A stretch of 64,000 bases of DNA, taken from positions 59,824-123,823 of the forward strand of contig JAMQCK010000051.1 in NCBI GenBank assembly GCA_024196135.1, in the 5' to 3' direction. Positions 1,944 through 50,459 of this stretch are shown in pieces; position 1 is the first letter of the stretch; the number at the start of each line of letters is the position of its first letter. The position numbers and the translations under genes are program-made. The notes beneath the pieces were generated by a model, which saw nothing but the letters and a program-made list of their open reading frames with translations, was not told where the DNA came from and did no database searches. The stretch comes from Pleurotus ostreatus/Saccharomyces cerevisiae fusant. Its lineage: Eukaryota; Opisthokonta.

Positions 1944-3035
1944 CTAGCCTACAAAGTCAAGATACTCCTGCGCCGAGTGGAAGACAGGAGGGTGTGGTAA
2001 ATCATTCTCAATGCGCTGTGTGAAGTTCATTGGCTGCGGTGCCGCTCGCTCGCGCGCCCACTCCCTGAGCTTGTCAAAGTTGCGGCACGAGTGTGCAACG
2101 TTGACGCGGCCGACAAGACCCTGGTAGTGCTCGGACCACTGCCAGACGTTGACCGAGATATCGGACGCGCACCTGAAGAGCAAGTCAGATCAGGGAATCC
2201 GAAGGGAAACGGGAGAGAGTCGGAAGGTATGCATGCCTCGGAATGCGGAAATTACAGATATCACGTACATAAGAGACTGCCGAATCGAGTCGACGCAGTG
2301 ATTGAGGTGCTCGAACTCAAGAAGGTCCTCCCGGATGACGGGCTTGTAGCGCTCGGGGCTGAGGCTCATGCGCAGATAATTCTAAAAAGGCGTCAAATGT
2401 GATTCGCTCTACGCTCGACCCGACAGCGTAGCTCACCAGGCAATGCAGCTGATGGAAGACATCGAGCTGCCCGAGATAAAGTCCTTCCTTTGCGTATTTG
2501 GGCACCGGGTATGTGCGATTGGGCAGGCGAACGGCGTGCTCGCGCGGCATCATGAAGACGGAGGCTGGGAGAGAGTCAGCGTGAATTGCAGGTGCATGAA
2601 GTGGCTTGGGGTCTGCGGGTAGAAGCAGCGTACGCGGGATATAGAGGTCGCTCCAGAGCTGGTCAGCCTCATCGGATAGTGCTTGGTAGGGTGACTTGTG
2701 TTCCGTGCCCGCGCGAAAGGTGATAAGCTCGTCCTCCAGGGCTTCTTCAGCAGGCGCTACGAGGTGATCGGCGACAAAGAAGGATGTGCGAAAAGGTCAT
2801 TCTCACAGTATAGGAAGTGAGTGCTGCCGGGAGAAGGGTGAGGGCGTGGAGCTGGACGGCGCAGGAGGAGAACGACGATGGCCACGAATTGCAGGAAGAT
2901 GACGAGGGGCATTAGTCTTGCGCGCCATCTCTGCCAGAGGTCGCGCGTGCGCGCTGGTGAGTGCAAAGCATGATGCTCCAGGTCGTCCGCATCTTCCATC
3001 GCCACCACGGGGACATACCCCTCCTTGTCGCACAT
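1944..3035 (-). CDS. UstYa-family (DUF3328) oxidase-like protein, copy 1
   Basis: Exons 3035-2807, 2756-2634, 2564-2437, 2381-2269 and 2172-1944 join in phase to about 273 residues, normal for the family. The order is a cytosolic N-terminus (MCDKEGYVPVV), one membrane helix (LMPLVIFLQFVAIVVLLLRR), then FLYSPAEEALEDEL and a lumenal domain. Both family motifs are intact: HQLHC in LDVFHQLHCL and HLNHC in EFEHLNHCVDSIRQSLMC. UstYa-type proteins are membrane-anchored oxidases that cyclise or oxidise peptides in fungal RiPP pathways such as ustiloxin, phomopsin and victorin; some act in other pathways. It is divergent from precursor gene A, with 739 bp between the two starts. The substrate is inferred from context, not shown. 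Confidence 0.9.
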
Positions 3036-3774
3036 TGTCGTAAGGTCGGCGCGAGGAAAAGGGAGGGAAGGCGAAGGCGAGGGGACAAAAGGTCGCCAGA
3101 TCACTTGTGTGTACCCTTTGTGTACTAGTGAAGCAATTACAACGTCATCCGATCCCGCGCGTAGTAGATGTAAAGACATCTTCTGGGGAGGTGCTGAGAG
3201 TTGAGGAGAGACCGCTGGTGATTGTGCAGGGCCTTTCTTTGGAAGCGGAAGAAGCACCACTTACATCGTTGCCGCAAGCCATAGTACGAGACGGTGCTCG
3301 ATCGGCAGCCTTAGACGAGCGAGAAACGCCTGCATGACGCTTGGAAGCCCGTAATCGAGGCTATCCGCTCCGTATATGGGCATTCGCTTATCTCTAGCTG
3401 CGTCCTTGTAAGAGCCAGGCCGTCGCATAACGTCCACCGGGGGTGCTTAGTCTCTCGTTTGCACAGCAGTTCTCCAGAGAATACGTGGAGTAGCGGCGAG
3501 CTGCTGCATCGTGAATATCGACTCGGGAATAGTTGACACCAAGGCATACGTGACTGCGGGGTATGGTGCCGATCGTGAGTATCGTACCCGTGGGTATGAA
3601 CGCATGAGAAGGACTTCCACCCTTCCATTGCATGGATCGTCGTAGGGGCCGATAGAGACAAGCGTCCGATGCAGCAAAAAATCGCATTGTCGAATGGCAC
3701 AACGGCTATAAAAGCCTTGAAGAAAATGGGTGGAGTCAGCCCCGCCGCACAGCAAAGTATCACTTACAGCCATA
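3036..3774. promoter_or_regulatory. Divergent promoter between UstYa copy 1 and precursor A
   Basis: The two genes are transcribed away from each other. A clear TATA box (GGCTATAAAAGCC) lies at about 3704-3716, about 60 bp before the start codon of precursor A. No coding signal is seen in between. A shared promoter would fit co-expression of oxidase and precursor, which is an inference. Confidence 0.6.
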
Positions 3775-4092
3775 ATGAAGCTCTCCCTACTTTTCGCGTC
3801 TCTCGCTATCGCTGCCTTCGCCGTGATGGCAGCGCCGGTCACGGTGGTCAGTGCAAACGACTCTGACCTGCAATATCTGCGTTGTTGATGCTCATTATTG
3901 TAGGAGCGCAGCTCTGATGTATCGAATGTGGTTCCGGAGGAGGGGGCCATTGCACCTATACCCTTGTTTGTCTGGTCTTTTGAGGATGTAAGTTATTTAT
4001 CTCGAAAAAATCGATCATGCACACTGATGAAAATTGGCGTACAGAAGCGCAGCGATGATGTATCTGCAGTGTCTTCGAAGAAGGGGATGTAA
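3775..4092 (+). CDS. Candidate Kex2-processed RiPP precursor A
   Basis: Exons 3775-3846, 3904-3987 and 4045-4092, with phase-0 introns of 57 bp each. Exon 1 is a signal peptide (MKLSLLFASLAIAAFAVMAA, then PVTV). Exon 2 starts ERSSDV and ends VWSFED immediately before GTAAGT. Exon 3 starts KRSDDV right after CAG and stops at TAA after 15 codons. This gives a 67-residue secreted product with one good Lys-Arg site at an exon junction. No homologue is recognised; the call rests on architecture shared with genes B-F. In frame past the stop there are further decayed units, so the gene may once have been longer. It lies between the two UstYa genes. Confidence 0.65.
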
Positions 4093-4295
4093 ACACCTCC
4101 TTGCCTCCACAACCGGGCCTTTGAGTACGTGAGACTGATAATATTGAAGGTCGACTGTGTCCACTGATTGCACCTGGCATGCAGAAGCGCGAGGAGAATG
4201 GAGGAAGGCCTGGCAGTCAGAGCCTGCACTTAGTCTGTGATATAGTATCGATGGATCCAGAATAGCGCGCACGATGAATCTGCGTGGGAGTTGGT
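4093..4295 (+). pseudogene. Decayed repeat units downstream of precursor A
   Basis: After the TAA at 4090-4092 the same frame stays open for 12 codons to 4128 and ends ...RAFEY directly before GTGAGA, where a unit exon should end. The next CAG (4182-4184) is followed by a unit starting KREENGG and reading to a stop. A further CAG at about 4259 precedes a short segment ending SAWEL before GTAAAA. The spacing and borders match the unit exons of the intact genes, so this looks like a tail lost through a premature stop. Alternative splicing that skips the stop-bearing exon is possible. Confidence 0.45.
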
Positions 4296-4552
4296 AAAAT
4301 ATGACTGCTTTGACACTCGTGGACGTTTGCGAGAGATGGAGAGTTGAAGCTTCGCGCGCGGAACGAGCATCGGATGATCAAACAGGAGAGTCGGATACTA
4401 TTCTGGGTCACAAGTCGCGTAAATCATCATTCACGCAACTGGGCACGGTGCTTCCGACGGGCATCATGAAGAGTCAGATGTATTGATTTTCAGCGCTGTC
4501 AGACGCTGGAGAAAAACCATCAGCAGATCGTATGTCTCGCGGCGCGAGTCAC

Positions 4553-5566
4553 TCACTCCGCTGCGGAATGAAGAATGGGCGGGTACGGCAAGTCATTCTC
4601 TACGTGCACAAACTCGTCGAAGGGCATCTCGGGCGCGAGTCGCTCGCGCACCCAATCCTTGATCTTGTTGAAGTTGCGGCAGGAGTGCGCGACGTTGACG
4701 CGCCCCGCGACGGCTTGGTAATGCTCAGACCACTGCCAGACGTTCACGGAGACGTCGGCGGAGCACCTATGACCCAGCGTTAGCGATCGAGGCCAGCAGA
4801 AGACGAAGAAGTACGCGCATAAGTGACTGCCGGATCGAGTCCACGCAGTGGCTGAGGTGCTCATATTCGAGCAGGTCGTGCCGGATTAGGGGCTTGTACC
4901 GCTCGGGGCTAAGGCTCATGCGGAGGTAATTCTAGTAAATCGATCGTCAGACAACGTACGCGAGCGGCCGACACGGAGAGGGACTGACCAAGCAATGGAT
5001 CTGATGGAAAACGTCGAGGTGCGCGAGGTAGTTCCCCTCTGGCGCATCGCGCGTTACGGGATGGGTCCGGTTAGGAAGGCGTGCGGCCACGTCGCGCGGG
5101 ATCATGAAGATGGATGCTACGAAGAAGGTCAAGTCAGTACGAGAAGCTGATGCACTCATCGGGCACGTACGAGTGTAGAGGTCTTCCCAGGCCTCGTCTG
5201 CTTCGTCCGTGAGCTGCTGGTAGAGGGTCTTGTGCTCAGTCCCCGCGCGGAAGACGACGAGTTCGTCCTCAAGTATGTGGTTGGCGGGAGCTATCGCGCA
5301 GATGAGCAATGGCTAGGAGAAACTAGACGAGTGAACTCACAAAAGAGGAAGTTCGCGCTGCCAGGAGACCGTCGCTCGGATGCGGGACGCAGGAAGAGAG
5401 CGATAATGGCCGCCGTCTCCAGAACAACGATGAGAGCCAATGTTCCGACACCCCAGCTGCGCCAGACGCGCTTCAGGCGTGATGGTTGGGGCCCGAGATG
5501 CTGCTCGACGTCGTCCAATGCGTCGATGGCGCTGGCCAGAGGCACATATTCTTCTGAGAAGCCCAT
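4553..5566 (-). CDS. UstYa-family (DUF3328) oxidase-like protein, copy 2
   Basis: The start MGFSEEYVPLASAIDAL is followed by a membrane helix (GTLALIVVLETAAIIALFL), then FLFSPANHILEDEL across the first intron (donor at 5340). Next come FMIPRDVAARLPNRT and the two motifs HQIHC and HLSHC, and the protein ends ENDLPYPPILHSAAE. The same five-exon structure as copy 1 and close similarity throughout (for example SVNVWQWSEHYQ in both) mark it as a paralogue. It lacks the last six residues of copy 1. It is divergent from precursor B, with 711 bp between starts. The role is as for copy 1; two copies may mean two reactions or two substrates. Confidence 0.9.
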
Positions 5567-6277
5567 GGTGAACAGGAAATGCGAGTCGCCTAGAGGCCTG
5601 CAGATGCGGATGATAAGACGACAAGGATACGAGTGCGCCTCCCTATCCCCGGCAGTACCCTGGTCTTTCAGGCGGTACCGAATTAGCGCGCGCAGTCCGT
5701 ACTTACAGGACAGGGCCTCAAGTGCAGACCGCGCTATGGCCACAACGGGATGGTCACGAGTCGCCCTGTAGCGCTTGCGGCGGCGCCTGAAGCTGCTATA
5801 CTCTGACCGCTCGGACGTCAGAGATACAGCGAGCCAGCGCACCAATGACTTCGGGAGACTCCCGCGGGAGGGAGCGGGAACTAGAGTACGAAAATCGGTG
5901 CTGCGCGAGCTCATGCCTTGGGTGGAAGAGGTGATCCTGAGACGGTTCAGTGACTTACCATCGGCCCGCTGTCAGTCGGGCAACTCGTCGGAATTGAGTC
6001 GCTGCTTCGAGGCCCTGCGGAATTGGCGCATATAGCCGGTAAGAGTACATGTGCAATGTCCATATGCGGGAAATCTTTCCGAGATAAGGTGAGGCGCACG
6101 TCGGTCACAAGTCAACAAGCCACTTGCGAGATGTACTCCCATTTCGGGAAGGAGGAATTTCCTCTACCCCAACGTCGAAGTACACGTGTGCGCTGTATAA
6201 AGGTAATCACCAGCGCAGACTGAGAAGCATCCTGAAGCGCACCTCCGAGACCATTGAGAATGCCATCGACCCCAGTA
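5567..6277. promoter_or_regulatory. Divergent promoter between UstYa copy 2 and precursor B
   Basis: Intergenic DNA between two outward-facing genes. A TATA-like box (TGTATAAAGG) at about 6194-6203 lies about 80 bp before the start codon of precursor B. No coding signal is seen. Confidence 0.5.
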
Positions 6278-6764
6278 ATGAAGCTCTTCTCTCTGATAAT
6301 AATGTCTTTAGCTTTAGTGCGCTGCGCGCTGGCTGCTCCTGCGAAGCAGGTGGGTGCAAACTTTTACGCACCGGTAGAGGCTGAATACAGGACCCAGCAT
6401 GAGAACGCGGGCGAGGATTTGCCTAGCATGTTTCGCTTCTGGGCGGCAGACGAGGTAAGCATGCGGGGGATAAGTCTCGGTCGCATCGCTTACAAGTCGT
6501 TGGATAGAAGCGCAGCGTAGACCTCCCCAGCGAGAATCCTGCAGAGATATCCGTGAGTAAGGAATCAGTATTCAATGTCTCCACTTACATTTCGGGATGG
6601 CGTAGAAGCGCACGGACGACTGTGGCGCTGATTTACGCAAGGCTTGGGCAGTGGAAGACGTATGTTTTCGCAAGACCGCCGCATCCATCGGGTACACTGA
6701 CCGTACACCGACCACGCAGAAACGCGGCGAAGGCGTTGCAGATTGCAGCATTCCCAAAGCGTAG
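6278..6764 (+). CDS. Candidate Kex2-processed RiPP precursor B
   Basis: Exons 6278-6454, 6508-6552, 6606-6659 and 6720-6764; every intron is phase 0. The 59-residue first exon has a signal peptide (MKLFSLIIMSLALVRCALAA) and a first unit ending FRFWAADE before GTAAGC. The next exons are KRSVDLPSENPAEIS, KRTDDCGADLRKAWAVED and KRGEGVADCSIPKA followed by a stop, giving 106 residues. Three Lys-Arg pairs sit exactly at exon starts. Two Cys residues occur late in the protein. No homologue is recognised. A GTGGGT...GGTAG stretch inside exon 1 could mimic an intron but is only 28 nt and would break the frame. Confidence 0.75.
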
Positions 6765-7448
6765 AGGCAGGCGTTAGAATATGACGAGTTATGGCGTAGC
6801 CCTCGCCCACAGTCGTCTGCTGTTACGGTCCATTGACACACTGCGGAGATCCCGGGAAGGCGCGAGTCTGTCGCCTTAAATCGCAAGTTGACTATATTTG
6901 TGGAATGGATATCATGAGCTTGTTTGCGTTGTCTGTGGCGGCGGGAGTTGGGTCGAAATCGCTGGCTTTCAGTATCTGGGGTTGGCATTCACTCGGATGC
7001 AGAAGTCAAGCGCGTACAACGTGAAGAACCAACTGTATGGGGAGAGGAGGCGGTAGGCAATGGTCATCAGAACTTCGAGACGCGCATGACTTACTACGGC
7101 CGGTGCGAGTTCGTGGTCAACGCTAGATGGCAACGTTGCGTCCCAGCAGCGTCTTGCTGTCAACCACCTGTCCCTCCGGCGGGGCGCTCTGGGTATCTTT
7201 GAAGTCGCAGGACGTGTAGCAAGCACACGTGCGCGCCAGAAGGCGGCCAACTGGAGGGAGACGCAAGGTTGGACGACCATAAAGCCAGCCAGTACGGACG
7301 GTAAGCGTAATCGAGGTCTTCTATGCACTCGAAGAGTCCGGGGTTCGTCCCTTGATGGTGGGCGATGCAGAGGATATATAGGCCCAAGTCGCAGTCCGAG
7401 TTCAGCTTCTGCGTGTCTTCGCATTAACACAAACCTCACCTCAATACG
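6765..7448. other. Intergenic, precursor B to precursor C
   Basis: No gene is supported here. A TATA box (GGATATATA) at 7372-7380 lies about 70 bp before the start of precursor C. Open frames on the minus strand show no recognisable domain. Confidence 0.5.
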
Positions 7449-7797
7449 ATGAACTTTCTCTTCATGATTATTCTGTGGGGGACGGTCGGCGTCGTGCTAG
7501 CGGCCTCTCTCAAGCAGGTACGAGACATGCAGAGCACGGGTTCGCCAGTGTTGCTGATATCCTGTACAGTCGTATGGCGATAATCATACCCCAGCTGAGA
7601 AGACCATCAGAAACTCCGTAAGCGATGTCCTTGCGAATACGCGCACTTGATTGAAGATAGTATCTGCAGGACCACGAAGGCGCAGCCGCCGCCAGATTCT
7701 GGGCTAGCGAGGACGTGAGTGTATAACAGATCGCAGTTAAGTTCATCACCGAGGACTGGCGTTGCAGAGGCGCGAGCTGGGCGCAGATGAGGTGTGA
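7449..7797 (+). CDS. Candidate RiPP precursor C (degenerate dibasic sites)
   Basis: Exons 7449-7517, 7570-7617, 7670-7714 and 7768-7797, all joined in phase 0, giving 63 residues. Exon 1 is a hydrophobic signal (MNFLFMIILWGTVGVVLAAS). The following exons are SYGDNHTPAEKTIRNS, DHEGAAAARFWASED and RRELGADEV followed by a stop. The Trp-x-x-Glu-Asp end before a GTGAGT donor matches the other precursors. Only the last unit keeps a dibasic start (Arg-Arg), so this may be a decaying or differently processed family member. Confidence 0.6.
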
Positions 7798-8230
7798 TAT
7801 GCGCGCTACCACACCACCTTTAGGGTCATTCTTAAGAGGTGCTAAACTTAGCAGTAGTAGCAGTATTCTGCGGAGATATTCAGCTATATGATGATGGAGA
7901 AATTCGCCTTGCCTACACTGTGAGTAGCCATGTGCGCTCTTGCGTGCGCTTCACGATGTCATTTGAACAAATGTACGGACGGAGGCTCAGCGCCATTCCG
8001 TCCTTTAGTCACATACTGCAGTGACGAACAAATCCTTGCGTCAGGAGAACGCTGCGAGCGATGTGATCGTAAGTAGGAAAGATGGGAGGAGAACGAGACC
8101 GGACCCAAACCGGAGATTGCCGATCAGCACGCGAGCCGGATGATGTCCGGGTATCGTACCCGTGTCCAGCACGTATATAGCACAGAGAGGGCGCTGTCAC
8201 CTGTAGCGAAAGCTGGCCTGTCAGTGCTTA

Positions 8231-8447
8231 GCGACTAGATGGTAACAGCTGACGCTCACACGCACTTATTTATGCTATCCGAGCTCGATTTCCTTGTGAG
8301 GCGGAGCACAATGCTTTTTGAGTAGCACCCTGGATCGTTAGACCTGCGCCACCGATCCAGCACGCAGAGTACAAAAGCACACACTGATGGCTTGTTCACT
8401 CACCTCAACAACTGGTATACCGGCGGCAGGACCCATTACTCGTTACA
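8231..8447 (+). promoter_or_regulatory. Promoter of precursor D, duplicated upstream of F
   Basis: Three blocks are shared with the region before gene F in the same order: GCGACTAGA (8231), GCACCCTG-ATCGTT (about 8325) and GTACAAAAGC (about 8369, TATA position). The start codon follows about 80 bp after the last block. The shared blocks show that the duplication copied the promoter as well as the gene. Confidence 0.6.
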
Positions 8448-9305
8448 ATGCAGCTCTCCCTAGCCGTCACACTCGCTGTGGTCGCGACCAGCGTGCTCGC
8501 GGTCCCGTTGTTCGAAGTAAGCAGAATGGACAGGGTATTATGATAACAGTCGTCGAACAGCCCTGTTTACGCAACGGCGACCGCGAGCTGCTGATGAGGC
8601 GTCGAATTTGCAGAAGCGCGGTGAAGCCGTTGGAAGCGACGGAGAGGGATCGTTCTACCGGGCGTCGTGGGCAGTGGAGGATGTACGCAAGCTGGTCTCG
8701 CGGGCGAAGACGATCGCCGCACGTCGCTGATCAAGGTCGCCGAACCAACAGAAGCGCAGTGAAGTCGTCGAGAGTCGCGAGGAGGGGGCGATCAAGTATC
8801 CCACGTGGACCAAGGAGGACGTGAGTTTGCTTTATCCTACCTGCCCGATGTGACGGCTAACTCACGTTCGCAGAAACGCACTGACGACGCCCATTGGGCC
8901 GGTACGAACTGGGCACTGGAGGAAGTAGGCCGCAGCGGGCCGTCATTGTAACAACCTAGGATACTGAGTGACCATCCAGAAACGCACGACCGAGGGGCAC
9001 GCACTTGCCCATCAATGGGGTTACGAGGATGTGCGTGTGCTAACCTTGCCCGCTGCTGGCTCCGCATCACTCACTTTCAGTTCTCGTTGGTGCTGATAAC
9101 TTCCTAGTGGCGCGACAAAGAGTCAAACGTGCCCACCAACCACAAAGCCTGGGTTCTCGACCAGGTGAGAGTCGCGGACAGCGTTAACGTACAGGCCTAA
9201 TGAGTTTGACAGAAGCGCAGCGAAGTCGTTGGACGCGGCGGCGAAGAGGCGCTGTACGATCTGAGCGGTTTGGCGCAGGAAGGCGAGTGGTATGTGGCTA
9301 CGTGA
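8448..9305 (+). CDS. Candidate Kex2-processed RiPP precursor D (six units)
   Basis: Seven exons: 8448-8516, 8614-8682, 8752-8820, 8874-8924, 8980-9030, 9108-9164 and 9213-9305, all phase 0. Exon 1 is a signal peptide (MQLSLAVTLAVVATSVLAVP). Exons 2-7 each carry one unit: KRGEAV...ASWAVED, KRSEVV...PTWTKED, KRTDDAHWAGTNWALEE, KRTTEGHALAHQWGYED, WRDKESNVPTNHKAWVLDQ and KRSEVV...AQEGEWYVAT. Five of six start with Lys-Arg. The units differ in sequence, so several distinct peptides would be released. A GTATGT inside the last exon is a possible donor, but using it creates an immediate stop, so the protein ends nearby either way. Units 2 and 3 are close to those of F. Confidence 0.78.
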
Positions 9306-9646
9306 TTGCGGGGGTCGAGGTGCAACTAGCTTACACCGCACCCCTGAGACGCAGATTTCAGAACGATTGGGGAGGCGCCGGACCGAGGAAGCTGAATCCT
9401 GAGGGGCACAGAAGCTAGTCACAGGGGCGGTGGGGGCGCTTGCTAGAGAGATAAAGGGCGTGAATTAGCAGCCGAAGAGGATGACCCAATCTGAAGCAGC
9501 GTGCAGCATCTGACGGGTTGGTTCACCTGCAAGATCCGAGCGCCACCTGCGGCGTAGTATAAGAAGTCGATTGGAAGGCGCACTGAGGAAGGAGCGAGAC
9601 CTTGCTACGCAAGGCTGACCCTGCATGCCATCAGCCTCCTCTTGCC
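9306..9646. other. Intergenic, precursor D to precursor E
   Basis: It holds possible unused 3' exon-like sequence after a CAG near 9360 (reading NDWGGAGPRK) and a TATA-like TAGTATAAG at 9555-9563 for gene E. Otherwise I see nothing. Confidence 0.4.
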
Positions 9647-9947
9647 ATGAAGCTTTCGCTGGTAGCCATAGCATCGATTGTCGCCAGCATCGCATTCGCC
9701 GCGCCGATACATGCGCTCGACGGAACTCTTATGGTCTTTCTATCAGCGTTGGATGTTCACGAAGCTGAGGATACTGATAACTGTCGCAGAGGCGTGAGAA
9801 GGCGACGGAAGATTGGTACATGACCGTGTGCGGCTGGGCATACGAGGATGTGAGCGACTGCATGAGCTGGGGCAAGGAGCGAGGTTGACTATCTCGACGT
9901 AGAAGCGCCGGTCTAAGGAATGTCCTCCCCCTCCGGGGGTGGCCTGA
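9647..9947 (+). CDS. Candidate short RiPP precursor E
   Basis: Exons 9647-9733, 9790-9849 and 9903-9947, phase 0, 63 residues. Exon 1 is a signal peptide (MKLSLVAIASIVASIAFAAP) plus a short linker. Exon 2 starts RREKATED and ends VCGWAYED before GTGAGC. Exon 3 is KRRSKECPPPPGVA and a stop. Both later exons resemble the last two exons of F (CGWGVED, then KRRAGDCPPQLASDE), so E looks like the 3' part of an F-type gene with its own signal exon. The first donor (GTCTTT) is weak, so that junction is the least certain. Confidence 0.62.
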
Positions 9948-10376
9948 TGCGTCTGGACATCTGCTGAGCAGGGGAAATGACCTCGTGCTGCGTTCGTTGA
10001 CACGGGTGGAAGAAGGGGAGAAGGGACGGAATTACTTGTATACGTACCTGTCAAAGCTACCCCTATGGTTCTAGTCAGGCTGGATTAGGTATCGAGACAG
10101 CGCAAGAGTTTGGTGAGTATAGTTTCCAATCGGATGCTCAACGTATCACCTCATTGCACCTCGATTCCTCAACGTGCGTTGCAGCCGCACCTACGCCGTC
10201 TCTTTAGTTACAGTCTTCGGTCATAGCGTACGACTGACTCACTGGACAGTTGTCGCTGGAGCGAGGGGCTGAACGCTGGATTAGATCATCGCTGTCGTTC
10301 TACGTGCTCGGCTCCGGCACATCTCGCGCAGAGAGAGGCCCACTACCCGCAGTAAGAGCCGGCCTGACGAACCTGA
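9948..10376. other. Intergenic, precursor E to promoter of F
   Basis: No coding or RNA signal is recognised in this stretch. Confidence 0.4.
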
Positions 10377-10573
10377 GCGACTAGACAATAGCAGGTGATG
10401 CTCAGGGAGTACACCAATATATTTACTATCTAGCTTCTGTTCCTCGGCAGGCAGGACATGAGTTCTGTGTATTGGCACCCTGAATCGTTTTGCCGGCGAC
10501 ACCCAGTCAGCATACGGTACAAAAGCTCGCAACCAGGCTACCTCCGCTCACCTCACAGGCAGCTTGTCATGCG
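10377..10573 (+). promoter_or_regulatory. Promoter of precursor F
   Basis: It carries GCGACTAGA (10377-10385), GCACCCTGAATCGTT (about 10479) and TACAAAAG (about 10518), in the same order as before gene D. The last element lies about 55 bp before the start codon. Confidence 0.6.
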
Positions 10574-11237
10574 ATGAAGCTCCCGCCGGCCATCGTGTTC
10601 TCCGTCGTCGCGGCTAGTACACTCAGTACACTCGCGATCCCGTTGGCGGATGTAGGATAACCGATCCCCTGCCTGTCTATTACCGTCTGATATTCCTGCA
10701 GCATCGTGAGCACGACGGACCGACCAACTATAGTTACTGGGGCGCAGAGAATGTGAGACGTCCGAGTCCTGCAACAAAGGTCGCGAGTCGCTGACGAAGA
10801 CTGTAATCGCAGAAACGCACTGAGGTCGTTGAGCGACGCGAAGAAGGGGCAATCAGCTATCCCACATGGAACAAGGAGGACGTGAGTTTGCCAGGCGCTG
10901 CAGGCTCGATAGGCCAGCGCCTGGCTAACTGGACTACGTAGAAACGCACTGTCGGCGCCCATTGGGCCGGTACAAGCTGGGCGCTTGATGAGGTAGGGTA
11001 GGCAAATTATGCCGGGCGCAAACGCGACGACGGTGCTTTGTTTGCTAAGGCAGCACAGAAGCGCGGCCTGAAGCGGAGCGATGACGGAAGCCTATTGTTG
11101 AAGCCCTGCGGCTGGGGCGTCGAGGATGTGAGTCTTGAGAAAAGTTCATGAAAAGAGCCGGATGTAACTGACATGATCGACTTCTGTAGAAACGTCGGGC
11201 TGGAGATTGCCCGCCTCAGTTGGCGTCGGATGAGTGA
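10574..11237 (+). CDS. Candidate Kex2-processed RiPP precursor F (five units)
   Basis: Six exons: 10574-10651, 10702-10752, 10813-10881, 10942-10992, 11059-11127 and 11190-11237, all phase 0. Exon 1 is a 26-residue signal exon (MKLPPAIVFSVVAASTLST, then LAIPLAD). The units are HREHDGPTNYSYWGAEN, KRTEVV...PTWNKED, KRTVGAHWAGTSWALDE, KRGLKR...CGWGVED and KRRAGDCPPQLASDE plus stop. Unit 4 has a second internal Lys-Arg. Units 2 and 3 differ from those of D at only a few residues. Each unit exon except the last ends in Glu-Asp, Asp-Glu or Glu-Asn directly before the GT donor. An ATG just upstream (10570) is followed at once by a stop and is not used. Confidence 0.8.
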
Positions 11238-11694
11238 GAGGTAAGTTATCTTGAAGAATTTCGCCAATCACCCTGCGAGCGCGTATGAGGGGCAGGCGTC
11301 GATACAATACACGAATTGTACAGGACGTACCTGACGAAGCTGTTGCTGTAGGCGGAACGAGGCCTCAAGGTGGTGCCGAGGTGACACGGCAGATGGGATC
11401 GCTCGTCGAAGACCGAGCCAGATGCGCTGCTGTTCGTCCATCACCTCCTCCCGCGCTTTCGGCAGATCCGCGAGATGGTACGGGTGCATCTCTGAAAGAA
11501 AGAATCCCACTGCTGCTGTATAGAATCCCGCCGCTGTAGAGTCGAGACGAACAACCTGAGCTTCTGACGCAGCTGTGAGCGCTTGACCTCGGTATAAATG
11601 CGGAGTGGGGAACGTACGTCGGAAGCAGCGACAAACTTCATCTCCTTCACCTTCCTAGCCTCAACCACCTCGACTCTTGACCGCCGGCCTCAAT
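11238..11694. other. Intergenic, precursor F to precursor G
   Basis: A TATA box (GGTATAAATG) at 11591-11600 precedes gene G by about 100 bp. A minus-strand open frame of about 80 codons (11268-11510) has no recognisable domain or supporting exon structure, so I do not call it. Confidence 0.5.
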
Positions 11695-12096
11695 ATGCAG
11701 CTCACTGCACCCATCCTCACCTCCATCGTCGCTCTCCTGACGCTCGCAGCGCCCGTGGTGGACGCAAGCCCTGTCGCGCTGCGAGCGAAGGTAGGCGAGC
11801 CAAGCCCTCCGCTCACTCGTGTCTGGATGGCGGGAAACGTGAGTGCATGTTCGCTCCTTCCAGCTCGGCGACGGGTCTTGGAAGCTTGTACTATGAGCTG
11901 ACCAATTGGGCAGACGCGCGATGAGGACAAGAGCGAGATATTCAGGCAGAAACGCGACGAGGATGAAAGCGGCATCTTCCGCAGGTGCTCATCTGAGGTG
12001 AGGGGTTGTTCTCTTTGGATGACCATGTTCCTCGTAACTTGACAACCTTCATAAAAGTGCGACGAAGACTCCTCCGACATTTTTCGCAGGTGCTAG
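11695..12096 (+). CDS. Candidate repeat precursor G with Asp/Glu-Ile-Phe-Arg-Cys repeats
   Basis: Exons 11695-11838, 11914-11997 and 12058-12096, phase 0, 88 residues. Exon 1 has a signal peptide (MQLTAPILTSIVALLTLAAP) and a linker ending VWMAGN before GTGAGT. Exons 2 and 3 hold three copies of one short repeat: RDEDKSEIFRQ, KRDEDESGIFRRC and CDEDSSDIFRRC, then a stop. A Lys-Arg separates the first two copies. The repeat is near-identical, unlike the varied units of A-F, and it is Cys-bearing. Position, signal exon and phase-0 splicing tie it to the family; it may give a different peptide class. Confidence 0.7.
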
Positions 12097-12740: not shown

Positions 12741-13951
12741 TCGTGTTGTAAGTGAGATTTACAGTGGGAGTGAGGAAAGAGGCCTGCACCGGCGATGGAC
12801 TCTTAAGTATAGAGGTAACGGCTGCGACGCTGGCGAGTCGTCGCGGCAGAGAACAAGGGTGCTGGGCCGCCGCTGGCGAACGCCTTCGGCAAGTCGGCGG
12901 TGACCGGCTTCCGGGCCGGACGGTCACGGTCACGCAAGCGGCGAACGCGGCGTCGACTTGAACTTGACCTCAACTTCATTTCTGTGGAACAGAGGCAAGA
13001 GCCTCCGTACCCTGATGCCAGACGATCATGATTACGACCTTCCTGACGGCGTCGAAGCTGCTTCCCTCATTGTACATGCTCCTTCGGCATGGCCAACGCA
13101 CCTTCTGACAGCGAGCACTTTCCTGCATCTTCGAAGCTGACCAGTCGTGGTGAGAAGGGTGAGATCCAACCATGCAATCTCTGCTGACTCGTAATCAGCC
13201 TGGTGTTATTTCTGACCTACTGTTGGATCTGTCTTTGGAGATTCCACAGATTTTACGAGCCGCTGGCAGAATACTAGTATACTACAGCCTGCTGCAATCG
13301 AACGTCGCAAGATATGGAGCGATTGATTTCTTAGACTGTGCTAGCGTATTTTGTCAAGCCGACGCAGGGATTCGTCGATACGGCTCTGCTACCTTCTCCA
13401 TGTACTTTCTTCACCTCCGCTATGTTCGCTCGACCAGCGCACGTTGTGGACCCACAACTGATCCTATCAGATCAATAGATGTCAACCGATGGCTATCACT
13501 GCAGACGACGACCATCATCGCGCAGTCCCACCCCAGAGCACGCGCATATCAGGACCAGAACGGTCACAAAAGACCCTGGAAGAACAGGCGAGTCCCCCTC
13601 GTGCTTGTTTCCGATACAGCCTGCGATAGGTCGCTTTTAATGCCAAGCTCAGCGTTCTTTCCCAGCCTCCCGCGAAAGAATGGGCGAAGTTCTGAATGCC
13701 CGCATCTGACTGTGCGATTGTTCAGCCCATGATGGGGGTCTTGTCAGCTCTCCCACCGTGTCGATGACCTATCCCAAGCGGGTCGCCGACGGCGCGCCAG
13801 GGCTGAGACAGGTGATGAACCTGACCGCCATGAGATTGCATTGCAGGGGTTGCCACGCCTGACCGTGCTTCTATCCGGCCCCCAGATCAGAACCTGGCGC
13901 TTAAAGAGACCCGCGTCGCACACACGGTTCTCCATCTCGCTCTCCCATCCG
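12741..13951. other. Intergenic, mitofissin to FMO (divergent)
   Basis: Divergent upstream regions of the two genes. A plus-strand open frame at 13172-13732 shows no domain and I do not call it. Nothing else is recognised. Confidence 0.45.
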
Positions 13952-16567
13952 ATGGCTTTCCAGTACCCGCCCACCGAGCTGCCCACCCTCCAGAGCCTCG
14001 GCGTCTCCAGCGCCCCCGCCGCGACCGACGTCGACGCGTCCGCGGTGTCGGAGAAGTGGCTCGCGTCGCTTTCAAAGGCGCTGGACGCCCGCGACGCGGC
14101 TGGCGCGGCGAGCCTCTTCGTCCCCGGCGCATACTGGCGCGATCTTCTCGCCTTCACCTGGGACATCCGCACCTTCCGCGGGCCCGACAAGATCAAGACG
14201 TTCCTCGCGGACACGCTCGCGCAGGCGAAGCCCACCAAGATCGCCCTCACGCCGGGCACGGCTGCCGCGCAGGCGCCATTCCCCGACGTGCTCTGGGTGA
14301 TCGCGCTCTTCTCGCTCGAGACCTCGGCGGGCCCGACAACGGGCGTCCTGCGCCTGGTGCCCACGCAGGACGGCTCGTGGAAGGCGCACGGCGTCCTCAC
14401 CAGCCTCGAGGGCCTCGCGGGCAACCCTGAGCGCATCGGCCCCTTCCGCGAGAAGTCTGAGCAGCCCCCTTACCATGCCCAGCCGACCCTGGAGAGCGCT
14501 CAGCCAACGGTCGTGATCGTCGGTGGTGGGCACAGCGGCTTGAATGTCGCGGCGCGCCTGAAGGCACTCGGCGTCAACTCGCTCATCCTCGAGAAGAACT
14601 CGCGCGTGGGCGATAACTGGCGCGGGCGGTACGAGTCGCTCGTCTTGCACGATCCCGTCTGTGAGTGACGTGCTTCTTCTGCGCCGGATGGTTTCTGATC
14701 AGCGTGTCCTGCAGGGTACGACCACCTGCCATATCTCCCGTATGTGGTGTTCCTTGGAGCAGATGCGAGGCAAGCTTGCGGCTGACCCTTTGCTCTAGAT
14801 TCCCTCCCACGTGGCCTGTGCACACCCGTGCACCCAAGGTGGGTCATCCTTCTCGGTTTCATTCCCCTCAGAGATCCTCAATATACGCTTCTACCCCGTC
14901 CCACCCTCTATCCTTGCCTTTTCTCTCTTCTCCGCTATCGAACATGACCGGCTGATACCTTCCATAAGCTCGGCGACTGGCTCGAATCCTACGCGACCTC
15001 CCTCGACCTCGATGTCCTCACTAGCACGCCCGTCGTCCGCGCCACGCACGACGAGAAGACAGGCTCCTGGACCGTTGTCGCACGGCGAAGCTCTGACGGC
15101 AAGGAGCGCACCTTCAACGTCAAGCACGTCGTTCTCGCCGTCGGCCTCGGCGAGGGGTGGAGCAAGATCCCCGAATACAAGGGCTTGGTGAGCATGGCGG
15201 GCCATGGAAGCTGTCTTCTCTGTACTGATGCGATGACGATAGGATACGTTCGGTGGGAAAGCCTTGCACTCGTACAGCCACAAGTCGGCGGACGCGTACA
15301 AGGGGAAGAAGGTGCTCGTTGTTGGCGCATGCACGGCCGGTAGGTCTCGCTGGTCTTTCCCTTGAATGACAGTGCTGATAAGACTGCAGCCCACGACATC
15401 GCCGCGGAGTGCGTCAGGAAGGGCGTCGGTGCGTACATCGGCGTGTTAAGCAAGCGCTGGTGCTAATGTTGCTCGTATAGATGTGACGATGTACCAGCGC
15501 AGCCCGACGTATGTCATCACCGTCAAGACCGTCAAGGAGGCGTTCATGAAGGGTGCGCACGCCTTCACGATCCTGCTCGAGCCGCGATGCTGATACCGTA
15601 TCAGGCCTCTACGAGGAGGGCGGCCCTCCGACGGAGGTCGCAGACCTGCTCGGTGCTTCCTTCCCGTACCCGATGCAGGGCGAGCTCGGCGCGCGCTCCG
15701 TGCTGCACTTCGCGGACTTGGACAAGTGAGCGATCGTCGCTTCCAGCCTCGTAGTCGTATATTCTGACGCTGCATCAGGGACACCCTCGAGGGCCTCGCG
15801 AAGGTGGGCTTCCGCACGAACAAGGGCTACATGGACAAGGGTATCTTCTGGTCCTTGATCGAGGCAGGTGGCGGGTACTACATCGGTACGTCTTCTTCCT
15901 CATCATGAGTATGCTGCCTGGCTGAACACGCTACACTCAGACACCGGCGCCTGCAAGTACGTCATCGACGGCAGCATCAAGTTGAAGAGCGGCCCACCGG
16001 CGAAGCCGCTGCAGGGCGGCAGCAGCGTGAAGCTGACGCACTTCACGCGCGACGCGGCGGTCTTCGATGACGGGTCCGAGGTCAAGGCGGACGTGGTCAT
16101 CTTTGCGACGGGGTAAGGAGGGCTCGGCGAGTTTACAGGTCGAGTGCTAACGCGCGTATCATCCAGCTTGGGTACCGTCAAGGATGCCGTCCACCAGATT
16201 TGCGACTCGAAGACGGCGGAGAAGGTGAAGAAGGTCAGTGCTCCTGCTCGTCCATTGGATAGTGGTGACTGACCGGTGTCTTCAGATCTGGGCTCTTGAC
16301 AGTGAGGGCGAGATTAACGGCGTCTACCGCGACGGCGATGTGCCAGGACTGTATATCATGATGGGTGAGTTGCTGGTCTTTGCGCGAGATCTTGGGCTGA
16401 CGGGCTCTTTCAGGTAACCTGGCCATCTGCCGTTTGTACTCCAAGTATGTCGCGATGCGTGAGTTGTACCCATCAACTTGCGCTGCAGATTTGCTAAGCC
16501 TTGTGCAGAGATTGCCGCGAAGGAGACGGGTGCCTATGGTACGCCGTACAGGGTGGGCAAGGAGTAG
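13952..16567 (+). CDS. Flavin-containing monooxygenase with N-terminal SnoaL-like region
   Basis: A long first exon (to about 14659) is followed by several short introns. The first ~150 residues resemble a SnoaL/NTF2-like fold (KWLASLSKALDARDAAGAAS). Next come the FAD motif VVIVGGGHSGLNVAARL, the FMO signature region FGGKALHSYSHKS and the NADPH-site region KVLVVGACTAAHDIAAE. The C-terminus is GTPYRVGKE. Such basidiomycete FMOs are soluble oxygenases of unknown physiological substrate. FMOs occur in the ustiloxin cluster, so a tailoring role for the peptides to the left is possible but unproven; the intervening mitofissin gene argues for caution. The start was chosen at MAFQYPP; an ATG at 13841 is in frame upstream. 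Confidence 0.9.
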
Positions 16568-17063
16568 ACGTCCTACGACACATAATTCTTTGGCATGGCT
16601 TCACACATCGGTTACGAGGCTTACGTTCCTATTGCATCTGTACTTATACGACAATCACATATCGAGAATTATTGGCTTTGGAATCTGCCAGTCAGGAATG
16701 GGGTGCGTAGGAGCGGCCTCCTCGCCTTCGAGCGATCGCTTGCCGATGAGGGCCTCGATCAATCTTCTCCTGCCATTCGAGCGGCTCTTCCTCTTCTGCT
16801 TCCAGTCGAGCGGGCAACGCTCGTACAGTCGGCTCCTCCTGCTGTTGCTAAAAGGTGCGCTGAGTATGTAGTCGCGCAAACATTGTGATGACGGCAGTTT
16901 CCGTTTGATTTCGGCGAAGGCCAGTGGTCCATCATTTCAGATTTCGACGCGCTCCTTGATTCCAGCGCTGATACAGTCCTCGTCAGTCAACGAACACATC
17001 TTCGACCTGTACATGCCTCTATCCGGAACCCGAGGAACTCTTGACCCTGGACCTACGCTCAAG

Positions 17064-19772
17064 ATGGCGGAGGAGGGCATAGCGGGTACCGGGCGTCCGC
17101 GCTATGACGCGGAGCTATCTCCTGCCCTAACCGCGCGATCTGTGCGCGCCAGTGAGCAATTGCATGCGGAAGGTCTACTACGCCCAGGTTCTGCCAATGA
17201 TATATTGGAGACAACGAACGCCCCTAAGCTCGGGACCTCTGAAGCGGAAGAAATTGCGCGGACTTCAAATCGGCCGTCAGTGACCCCAGCTAACACTACG
17301 ATGACCGAAGCTGAGGGCGGCTCCAGGGTCTACGCTGACTTCGGTGCAAGCAGCGGTGGTCGTGTCACGCGTCGGCGGGGAAATGACCACGAGAAGGCAG
17401 GAGCGATGCACTTGTCGACCGAGCTCGATCACGCCGCGCGAGCGGACCAGCCCCGCTATACATCTAGCGCTGTCGACTACGAGAAGAAGTATGCCCCTGA
17501 TGAACATGGCGAAGAGCTCAGCTCTAACGCTCGAATCTGGAGCGTCTACAACGACGAGGCCCAGATCGCTGACACGGAACTCGTGAAGGGTCTGAATGGC
17601 ACACTCGACGTCCTCATGGTGTTTGTAAGTCGTCTTTCTATGGCCACTCACCATCTCATGACGCGCGATGAACAGGCAGGTCTTTTCTCGGCGGTCGTGA
17701 CGACCTTTGTTGCTCAGAGCTCGCAAGCTTTGAACCTGGACTATGCCCAGATGACAACGTCGTTACTATACGAGCTGACACGGCTACAACGTGCGATGGC
17801 TACAGGATCATCCATTAAGGACATTCCAGAGTTCCAGGCGGCATCCACCTTGAAGACCTACGCGTTGACGGACGTATGGGTGAATGGCTTGTGGCTTGTC
17901 AGCCTCACGCTTTCCCTATTGACCGCGCTGATCTCGGTACTCGCGAAGCAATGGATTCATGTAAGCATTCATGTCTTGGAAGACCCTTTCATCCCAAGCT
18001 TAGTAGTGGCTCAGCACTTCAACTCCATTACTGGGAGCACCCCGCGAGACCGGACCTACGTACGTCAATATCGTCTCAAAGCTTTTGGGCACTGGAAGGT
18101 CCCCGAGATCATAGGGCTCCTCCCAGCCTTGCTCAGTACCGCTCTGCTGCTGTTCTTCGCCGGGCTTGCTGTCTACGTCGCGCCTATGAATACCGCAATA
18201 TTGGCGGTCATCGTCTTCCTGTCCGCTGCCTCCTTTCTCGCGTATCTACTGACCATCATCCTGCCCGTATTCGTCCCGCATTGCGCTTACAAGACGCGCA
18301 CGTCCGACTACATCATCGTTCTCGCTCACGTCATGACAAACTATGTGTTCTACTACATCGTCCAAGTGATACGTCTGCCCTACGATGTCACGCGCTGGCA
18401 TATTCGACATCGCCATCGCCCGCGCGCCTCGAAGAGCTTCTGGACACCCTTCGCCACATTATGGGAATATAGTGCCCCTGCTATCCCTCCCCGCGTCAGC
18501 TCACGCGAACTGACCCACATCGAGACGCAAAGCCCATCCTTAGCCATAGAAGCATTGCTCTGGCTCTGCTCATCGCCTCTGAATGCATCTGCAGCCAACA
18601 TCTCTGTACAGGCGGCGTCCGCATTCCCCCGCGACTCGCTATCCGCTGTAAGGGGGTACTGGACTCTGCACTGGAAGGCATCAAATCGCCTGCGCACACT
18701 GAGCCAGACGATAGCCCCTACGCGCATTGCAGAACACGCAGACGCCGCCGAGCGGCTGGCGCGCACGATGATGCACGTTTCCGACGAGGACTGGTATATC
18801 CTGAAGTATCACATCTGGGAGCTGCGTCTTTGGGACAACCTGTACACAGCCCGCCACCAGATCGCTTCACCGCAAGCCGGCGCGATGCTTCGCCTCGCTT
18901 TGCTAGTGCGCCTCTGCTGCAAAACGATCACGCCAGCGGACCTCACAGCGCCGCAGCGTGCTGCTCGCGCCGTCGACTGGCCGATGTTCTACTCGCACGA
19001 CCTGAGGTTACATCCCGTCGTCTGGTGCCAACTCGACCGAGCGGTGCGGCTGTGTCTGCTGAGACTGGGAGATCGGCCACGGTGGTCGCAGTTCAGCGTC
19101 GATCCCCGATGGAGTCTCAGTATAGGCTATAGCTACGTCCTATCAGAGGACGAAGGCGAACCGTACGCACCACCGAACTGGAAGAAGGACCTATACGAGA
19201 ACACAGTGATCAGTCTGAGAAACTACGCGAAAGGCTGCAAGTGGAAAGAGGGGCGCGACAGACTAATCGGTAATTTGGAGAGGCTCAAGCGCTTACTCTC
19301 TCAGCATGCTGTGCAACTCGAAGATCATGTCGCACTCGGCACAAGCGACACACGGAGTGCAACTCGACAGGATGGGCACAATGACGTCGGGATGATGCTC
19401 ACGGAGCCGCCCGGTGTCGCCAGAGACGGAGGGATAGACCCCGAGGGTTCGGGCAAGACGCGTGGTAGTCTGCCTGGACTCGATGGGTCTGGCGTCTCTG
19501 AGGTGGCCGCCCCTGTGCCAGTGCAGAGCCAGATAGCTGCCGTAGCGAGCGACGAGCAACAGGACGACGCCGCTCTCGACATCGCCGACTCCACGAACCG
19601 CGCAGGCCTGCAACATCACGACGACCAAGATGACCACGTCGGTGGTAGCGCCGTTGTGGCGAGGGCAGGTGCTTCAGCTACTCCAATTGCTCCTGCCGCT
19701 TCCAGCGCAGCGCGCGGGCGTATCATCGACGACGCCGAAGGCTGGACCATGGACGTAGGGCAAGCGATATGA
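17064..19772 (+). CDS. DUF6535 membrane protein, copy 1
   Basis: After a disordered N-terminus comes YEKKYAPDEHGEELSSNARI-WSVYNDEAQIAD, the hallmark of the DUF6535 family expanded in agaricomycetes. The membrane segments include AGLFSAVVTTFVAQSSQAL, WVNGLWLVSLTLSLLTALIS, IIGLLPALLSTALLLFFAGL and ILAVIVFLSAASFLAYLLTI. Introns lie at about 17623-17674 and 17961-18013. The C-terminal half is helical, then low-complexity and acidic. The function is unknown. An ATG at 17013 is in frame and could also start the protein; I prefer 17064 for its AAGATGG context. A second copy lies at 50460-53309. Confidence 0.85.
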   Translation: MAEEGIAGTGRPRYDAELSPALTARSVRASEQLHAEGLLRPGSANDILETTNAPKLGTSEAEEIARTSNRPSVTPANTTMTEAEGGSRVYADFGASSGGRVTRRRGNDHEKAGAMHLSTELDHAARADQPRYTSSAVDYEKKYAPDEHGEELSSNARIWSVYNDEAQIADTELVKGLNGTLDVLMVFVSRLSMATHHLMTRDEQAGLFSAVVTTFVAQSSQALNLDYAQMTTSLLYELTRLQRAMATGSSIKDIPEFQAASTLKTYALTDVWVNGLWLVSLTLSLLTALISVLAKQWIHVSIHVLEDPFIPSLVVAQHFNSITGSTPRDRTYVRQYRLKAFGHWKVPEIIGLLPALLSTALLLFFAGLAVYVAPMNTAILAVIVFLSAASFLAYLLTIILPVFVPHCAYKTRTSDYIIVLAHVMTNYVFYYIVQVIRLPYDVTRWHIRHRHRPRASKSFWTPFATLWEYSAPAIPPRVSSRELTHIETQSPSLAIEALLWLCSSPLNASAANISVQAASAFPRDSLSAVRGYWTLHWKASNRLRTLSQTIAPTRIAEHADAAERLARTMMHVSDEDWYILKYHIWELRLWDNLYTARHQIASPQAGAMLRLALLVRLCCKTITPADLTAPQRAARAVDWPMFYSHDLRLHPVVWCQLDRAVRLCLLRLGDRPRWSQFSVDPRWSLSIGYSYVLSEDEGEPYAPPNWKKDLYENTVISLRNYAKGCKWKEGRDRLIGNLERLKRLLSQHAVQLEDHVALGTSDTRSATRQDGHNDVGMMLTEPPGVARDGGIDPEGSGKTRGSLPGLDGSGVSEVAAPVPVQSQIAAVASDEQQDDAALDIADSTNRAGLQHHDDQDDHVGGSAVVARAGASATPIAPAASSAARGRIIDDAEGWTMDVGQAI

Positions 19773-50111: not shown

Positions 50112-50459
50112 ATCGAAAGTGTAGGAATGCAGAGGATGTCGTAGACTGATGATGACATGAGCGTCCTTGTGGGCATCGAACACAAGCCTACACAAGCGCC
50201 TACCCATCAGAAAATCCACGAAGGGCAATAAGTGGCGCATCATTGCATTTGTCAATAATTCCTACACCATGTTCCTTGTTCTCAACTCTCACTTTCGCGG
50301 ATCAGCACGCTCTGGCAGTATCTGGCGCGCTCTATTTCACCGACAGGAAATGCTATCAAGCGCTCTCTCTGTATAGCCTGCAGGCTGCGCCATGTTCCAA
50401 AAATGCATATCAATTGAACAGCTTGACTGAAATATGACCGCACTTCACCCATCAAAAGC
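50112..50459. other. Intergenic
   Basis: No feature is recognised. Confidence 0.35.

Follow-up and report, generated by a model that had tools for sequence, protein, structure and literature searches.

A predicted array of exon-encoded peptide units beside two UstYa-type genes

Two UstYa-type genes and seven small precursor candidates

The DNA analysed here (the window) is a stretch of 64,000 nucleotides, C736:59824-123823 in our contig numbering, from the assembly of a Pleurotus ostreatus/Saccharomyces cerevisiae fusant; all genome searches below cover the 40.05 Mb and 1277 contigs of this assembly. Between positions 1944 and 12096 the window carries two minus-strand genes of the UstYa (DUF3328) family, UstY1 and UstY2, and seven small plus-strand genes, A to G, which are candidate precursors of secreted peptides. 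An earlier note on this DNA had described two UstYa genes with intact pairs of HxxHC motifs among seven small genes, each with a signal exon, and had reported internal Lys-Arg or Arg-Arg sites in A, B, D, E, F and G and a single Arg-Arg in C. These sites were found as described, a hydrophobic N-terminal exon that we judged by eye to encode a signal peptide is present in each of the seven, and a profile search of the two minus-strand proteins, which the same note had proposed, placed both far above the family cut-off.

UstY1 (1944..3035) was modelled with five exons (2807-3035, 2634-2756, 2437-2564, 2269-2381 and 1944-2172), as was UstY2 (4553..5566; 5341-5566, 5171-5290, 4989-5116, 4819-4931 and 4553-4766), and the intron phases, 1,1,0,2, are the same in both and in a third UstYa gene on contig C719, described below. 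The spliced proteins scored 155.2 bits (E 3e-45) and 159.7 bits (E 1.3e-46), respectively, against Pfam PF11807 UstYa, whose curated cut-off is 25 bits; our draft splice models had scored 142.8 and 152.8. Both HxxHC pairs are complete (HQLHC and HLNHC in UstY1, HQIHC and HLSHC in UstY2), and in a 51-row alignment C157, H183, H186 and C187 are invariant while H153 and H156 are at least 90% conserved. Intron 4 of UstY2 (4767-4818) reads GC-AG, with the donor gcgcgt; the matching stretch is apparently annotated as coding in the relative P0002 and as an intron in P0001.

With the draft splice as query, UstY2 shared 94% identity with GGF50DRAFT_89746 of Schizophyllum commune and also matched other proteins in S. 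commune, S. fasciatum and S. amplum; the genome is therefore probably that of S. commune or a very near relative. In a 52-row tree rooted at its midpoint, UstY1, UstY2 and the C719 protein fall in a single 14-row clade (support 100/100), the rest of which consists of Schizophyllum proteins except for P0047, on a long branch. An AlphaFold2 model of P0001, the UstY2 orthologue (49-row alignment, mean predicted local distance difference test 76.3, predicted template modelling score 0.63), has one predicted N-terminal helix (32-59) and places the HxxHC motifs inside predicted helices 150-164 and 181-195. A sequence search of solved structures with UstY2 gave best matches of only E 0.4-0.86, and Foldseek returned 0 matches for the P0001 model against the PDB at E <= 0.001, so the fold yields no mechanism. 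Copper dependence of a DUF3328 enzyme has reportedly been described, to judge by the title of a 2025 reference by Chiang.

Each enzyme gene stands head-to-head with a precursor candidate. UstY1 and A are separated by 739 bp (3036..3774), with TATAAA 68 bp upstream of A, and UstY2 and B by 711 bp (5567..6277), with TATAAA 82 bp upstream of B. Gene A (3775..4092; 67 amino acids) has three exons (3775-3846, 3904-3987 and 4045-4092), the second ending in WSFED, and is possibly truncated at its 3' end; beyond its stop lies an orphan plus-strand exon that begins with Lys-Arg (4185-4232, KREENGGRPGSQSLHL...). Gene B (6278..6764; 90 amino acids) has five exons (6278-6349, 6398-6454, 6508-6552, 6606-6659 and 6720-6764), with the exon ends WAADE and WAVED, and gene C (7449..7797; 63 amino acids) has four (7449-7517, 7570-7617, 7670-7714 and 7768-7797), with WASED. 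The longest, gene D (8448..9305; 152 amino acids), has seven exons (8448-8516, 8614-8682, 8752-8820, 8874-8924, 8980-9030, 9108-9164 and 9213-9305), five of them with this type of Trp motif, and gene F (10574..11237; 121 amino acids) has six (10574-10651, 10702-10752, 10813-10881, 10942-10992, 11059-11127 and 11190-11237), four of them with it.

Gene E (9647..9947) has three exons, of which the second (9790-9849) ends in WAYED and the third spans 9903-9947; the end of the first is uncertain, lying at 9712, where there is no GT donor, in our model, or by eye at 9733, before a GTCTTT at 9734 that likewise preserves phase 0. Gene G (11695..12096; 72 amino acids; exons 11695-11790, 11914-11997 and 12058-12096) carries DEDxSxIFR stretches in place of the Trp motif and is, as a putative precursor, the weakest member of the set; on their sequences A, C, E and G are all weaker candidates than B, D and F. 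The terminal exons of B (6720), E (9903) and F (11190) start with Lys-Arg and contain a Cys flanked by acidic residues or lysine, with Pro soon after (ADCSIP, KECPPP and GDCPPQ), a unit type distinct from that of the Trp exons.

Neither Pfam, scanned with the seven window precursors and the C719 precursor, nor NCBIfam, scanned with B, D, F and the C719 precursor, gave a match above cut-off. The best, of residues 1-41 of gene A to MF_alpha_N, has 19.5 bits (E 9e-4) against a cut-off of 22, and an alpha-pheromone assignment for gene A was not accepted. The possibility that A to G are one gene split into seven was also rejected, since every one of them starts with a separate ATG, ends with a separate stop and has a TATA-like element to itself.

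Mostly one predicted peptide per exon

The models divide A to G into 31 exons, separated by 24 introns. Every one of these introns is modelled in phase 0, as against 1,1,0,2 in the three UstYa genes, and 23 of them are GT-AG introns of 48-123 nt, the exception being intron 1 of gene E. Because we assembled the models by hand, looking for an open frame, the phase-0 count arises partly by construction; the Lys-Arg starts and W-x-x-E-D ends of the exons were not selected for during model building. The 24 exons that follow the signal exons measure 30-93 nt each, and a dibasic, Kex2-type pair starts 16 of them, as compared with 9 of 399 other positions (Fisher P 3e-17). At the other end, 14 of the 17 internal exons close with W-x-x-[E/D]-[D/E/N/Q]: the Trp stands at position -5, position -2 is E (11 exons) or D (3), and position -1 is D (9), E (3), N (1) or Q (1). 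When AG|dibasic...GT exons were searched for mechanically, 13 distinct plus-strand starts came up in the 10.2-kb region, 10 of which are modelled exon starts, as against 8 on the remaining plus strand and 11 on the entire minus strand.

This layout suggests that a single exon mostly encodes a single predicted peptide, in which the body varies and the C-terminus is almost constant. The bodies vary considerably, the best unit pair within any window gene being 43% identical. The earlier note had called the precursors distinct, and an array of distinct Kex2-type precursors beside UstYa genes is supported; the unit-per-exon layout and the W-x-x-E/D-D/E end, which it had missed, join most of them into one family.

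Gene D offered a comparison with annotations made by others. P0050 (GGF50DRAFT_116649), from another S. commune strain, matches D over its full length (93%), both proteins having 152 amino acids with 10 differences, of which 0, 1, 0 and 1 fall in exons 3, 4, 5 and 6; its annotation reproduces our model of gene D. P0050 and P0001 probably lie on one contig in that strain. Within the window, exons 3 and 4 of F are homologous to exons 3 and 4 of D, with DNA identities of 81% (D3/F3) and 84% (D4/F4), while the adjoining introns are 57, 43 and 30% identical. The synonymous and nonsynonymous codon changes number 7:4 for D3/F3 and 4:4 for D4/F4, so constraint on the unit bodies is moderate. Searches of the assembly for a further copy of the D-F region, or of either flank, gave none, which left no allele to compare at the window locus.

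Related genes elsewhere in the genome

A second locus with a UstYa gene is present on contigs C719 and C1087, which are near copies of each other (960 of 1009 columns identical over C719:1746-2754, about 95%). On C719 a precursor candidate lies divergently from the UstYa gene, at a distance of 1001 bp, and consists of a signal exon followed by five WAKAD units, one per exon: REELVQALAWAKAD, KREELVQAIAWAKAD, KREGLVTGEAWAKAD, KREPEELVQALAWAKAD and KREELVTGEAWAKAD. The units are 65-93% identical among themselves. Their five AWAKAD tails show 32 pairwise base differences, all of them at third codon positions and 0 at positions 1 and 2, and the tail is therefore held at the protein level. Between the C719 and C1087 precursors there are 9 synonymous and 4 nonsynonymous codon changes in 99. 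An earlier start of exon 2 in the C719 gene was rejected, since C1087 differs by 1 bp at that point and in P0055 the signal exon runs directly into REELV. P0056, a protein of 64 amino acids from a 925-base contig in ENA, carries PKREELVQAIAWAKAD, a near relative of a C719 unit. Common to the window and C719 are the Trp at -5, an acidic residue (or N/Q) in last place and a basic pair following it.

The promoters also share features. A TATA-like element lies 56-102 bp upstream in all eight precursors, counting two TACAAAAG elements that were included post hoc, and a strict TATA element is found in 6 of the 8, as compared with 2.5% of 60-bp windows. Eight eight-mers recur in at least four of the eight promoters, half of them being reverse complements of the others (a crude shuffle gave a mean of 0.14 and a maximum of 4), and we do not rely on them.

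Searching the whole genome, we obtained 8 matches to a strict exon pattern, all within B, D and F (3 for a reversed-pattern control), and 6 to a W-x-x-A-D pattern, all at C719 and C1087 beside UstYa (control 0); since both patterns had been written from the UstYa loci, only their absence elsewhere is informative. A loose pattern matched 33 times, against 51 for its control, and is not enriched as a whole; 13 of the matches are open and in frame, 10 of these at UstYa loci and the other three on C870, C1183 and C1190, where no UstYa match was found. At a third UstYa locus, with two UstYa genes on the pair of similar contigs C30 and C32, an exon with the Trp motif was not found. The two genes there (about 2.0-3.6 kb of L015, on C30, and L017, on C32) are convergent, one reads by eye HQLRC in place of an HxxHC, and a small secreted-looking gene lies, also by eye, near 6.2 kb of L015.

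These counts bear on whether the arrays arose by chance, as random short GC-rich exons with Lys-Arg that were strung together by hand. The hand-built models, with phase 0 sought, and the loose pattern's failure to exceed its control point that way. The excess of dibasic exon starts, the independent reproduction of the D model by P0050 and the confinement of the C719 tail differences to third positions strongly disfavour pure chance, and we regard it as highly improbable. The earlier note had also proposed a comparison with related genomes for co-occurrence. D and UstY2 apparently occur together in a second strain, and within this genome a related arrangement recurs at C719 and C1087.

Predicted processing and comparison with known systems

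We interpret A to G as precursors of UstYa-modified, Kex2-released peptides, following a dikaritin-like logic with frame-neutral exon cassettes and yielding a mixture of secreted, probably oxidised peptides; on the sequence evidence we assign this reading a probability of about 0.7. The genes would be transcribed and spliced, each small exon adding mostly one peptide unit, and the signal peptide would route the precursor into the secretory pathway. Kex2, for which the genome has a single P_proprotein match, would cleave after the basic pairs at the unit joints, and trimming by Kex1 would leave peptides ending in W-x-x-E/D-D/E. Before or after cleavage, the membrane-anchored UstY1 and UstY2 may oxidise residues of the units, the likeliest being the Trp or a nearby residue; the near-constant tail would permit the same enzymes to act on diverging bodies, and phase-0 cassettes would keep the frame intact whenever a unit is lost, duplicated or skipped. 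Secretion, Kex2 cleavage with trimming and then cyclisation of side chains by UstYa-type enzymes is the order given in a review (PMC9233826). The strongest hint at the mechanism is the near-constant tail beside the cleavage site. As to function, our guess is a chemical interaction with competitors or partners of a wood-rotting mushroom.

Several observations weigh against this interpretation. The Trp motif is missing from internal exons B3, C2 and G2, and 8 of the 24 post-signal exons lack a dibasic start. Position -2 is E or D in the window units and Ala at C719. The first splice site of gene E is doubtful, and gene A may be missing its 3' end or be decaying. In four of the five relatives of D (P0051-P0054), exons 3-5 are nearly unchanged and elsewhere other frames or intron read-through are annotated, which could be either annotation error or a real difference. 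The search with D yielded 5 matches among 35 candidates (E up to 1), none beyond S. commune, though relatives of the UstY proteins occur in S. fasciatum and S. amplum. Finally, no tyrosinase, methyltransferase, P450 or peptidase appeared when long frames, 16 from the window and 2 from its left flank, were scanned with Pfam, a weak test in which the exons of genes rich in introns are missed.

Part of this evidence would suit a largely decaying array, in which product would now come from B, D and F alone (and from the C719 gene). The orphan Lys-Arg exon behind A, the poor first donor of E, the one dibasic site of C and the want of a Trp motif in G all fit such a history; nevertheless, each of the seven models retains a start and an uninterrupted frame, GT-AG borders are present in 23 of the 24 introns, and every gene has a TATA-like element. 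We consider decay on this scale possible, at somewhat less than even odds.

A different account would make A to G ordinary linear, Kex2-processed signalling or defence peptides, with the UstYa enzymes acting elsewhere or as bystanders. In a survey of 1461 genomes, a DUF3328 gene lay near only 103 of 1680 basidiomycete KEX2-processed repeat proteins (KEPs; 6.1%), leaving 1577 of 1680 with none nearby, and one of the two possibilities raised there is that cyclisation "might hardly occur" in basidiomycetes (PMC7329392). Coprinopsis KEPs expressed in Pichia gave detectable peptides (PMC9769878), and Tyr, a known UstYa target (PMC9233826), is missing from 16 of the 24 window units. Against this account, two separate loci pair UstYa head-to-head with the same exon type and the strict patterns occur nowhere else in the 40-Mb genome, and we think it unlikely. 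The same survey qualifies a statement of the earlier note, that such an array would be unusual in a basidiomycete: UstYa-linked Kex2 precursors are indeed scarce there, and they are on record. The features that set the present locus apart are an array whose units are not identical, the placing of units mostly one to an exon, and the W-x-x-acid-acid end.

The tail itself could instead stay unmodified and serve either as a recognition tag (a follower) or as a cue for transport or for access by Kex2, with the variable body as the UstYa target. Its near-constancy beside variable bodies is what one would expect of a tag, and enzymes of ribosomally synthesised and post-translationally modified peptides (RiPPs) commonly read a recognition part beside the core (PMC12048977); by eye, however, the bodies have no common residue that might serve as target, and we hold this view to be rather doubtful. 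Also tentative, and in our judgement less likely than not as a whole, is an extension of the preferred interpretation into an exon-cassette library. In it the fixed W-x-x-E-D tag before Lys-Arg would mark units for the UstYa pair, any new phase-0 body would be an instant substrate, and units gained, swapped or possibly skipped by alternative splicing would make a changing cocktail; repeat-based mining would be blind to split, non-identical units, hence their apparent scarcity in basidiomycetes.

Among known systems the closest are the dikaritins (ustiloxin, phomopsin, asperipin and victorin), which likewise combine a secreted multi-unit precursor, Kex2-type sites and adjoining UstYa oxidases with paired HxxHC. 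Here, in contrast, there are seven divergent precursors, with units mostly on their own phase-0 exons and a near-constant W-x-x-E/D-D/E end, in a basidiomycete host. Dikaritin clusters contain a tyrosinase, methyltransferase, peptidase or transporter (Ding 2015, cited in PMC12048977), and none of these was found near the array among the 18 long frames scanned here, a scan in which introns can hide genes; the MFS gene of the window lies far off, at 40-41 kb. The near-identical core repeats of dikaritins are present in the C719 gene (65-93%) and absent from the window genes (at most 43%). Because of this lack of a repeated core we do not file the window genes as dikaritins, and say only that they appear to work like UstYa RiPP precursors. 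Epichloecyclins resemble them in that imperfect repeats yield several different cores, and differ in arising, in the account of PMC9233826, from a single precursor gene, gigA. With the KEPs (PMC6339444, PMC7329392, PMC9769878) they share secretion and units parted by Lys-Arg; the C719 gene fits the KEP description, whereas the window genes lack its near-identical tandem repeats (at most 43% within a gene), and mining for such repeats would probably miss their units. Cycloamanide (MSDIN) and borosin precursors, processed by a cytoplasmic S9 oligopeptidase and lacking a secretion signal (partly after PMC9769878), were rejected as a model: A to G have hydrophobic N-termini and dibasic joints instead, with no Pfam match above cut-off.

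The exon layout invites another comparison. Schistosome micro-exon genes, like A to G, encode secreted proteins in a series of small symmetric exons, any of which can be skipped without loss of frame; they belong to an unrelated organism and are not known to have Kex2 units or UstYa enzymes. A partial, open-licence literature search, in which the structures of gigA, ustA, phomA and vicA were not compared, turned up no description of UstYa-linked precursors with a single Kex2 unit on each exon. In word searches of PMC6339444, PMC7329392 and PMC12048977 the words "intron" and "exon" occur 0 times, and in PMC9769878 and PMC9233826 "intron" occurs once each, concerning cDNA and amatoxin clusters, respectively. 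Non-identical units, mostly each on an exon of 30-93 nt, are a possible reason why UstYa precursors seem scarce in mushrooms, and the layout supplies a search rule for any mushroom genome: AG|Lys-Arg ... Trp-x-x-acid-acid|GT exons beside UstYa genes. It would also make Trp a possible UstYa target, in addition to Tyr and Phe, for which PMC9233826 names links.

The Pfam scans of the window and its left flank also matched NUDIX and F-box-like domains, an MFS gene far off at 40-41 kb and two plus-strand frames of DUF6535, a family of unknown function (16872-19769 and 50427-51158). At about 976-1012 on the minus strand is a motif that looks like the start of a MADS-box gene, in a short frame (894-1085) that had no Pfam match. 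The start of an FAD/NAD-binding, oxidase-like gene (NAD_binding_8) lies at 13.7 kb (13733-14665 onward, plus strand) and by eye resembles a flavin monooxygenase. Flavin monooxygenase-like enzymes are common in fungi. The ustiloxin cluster includes enzymes of this kind (PMC12048977).

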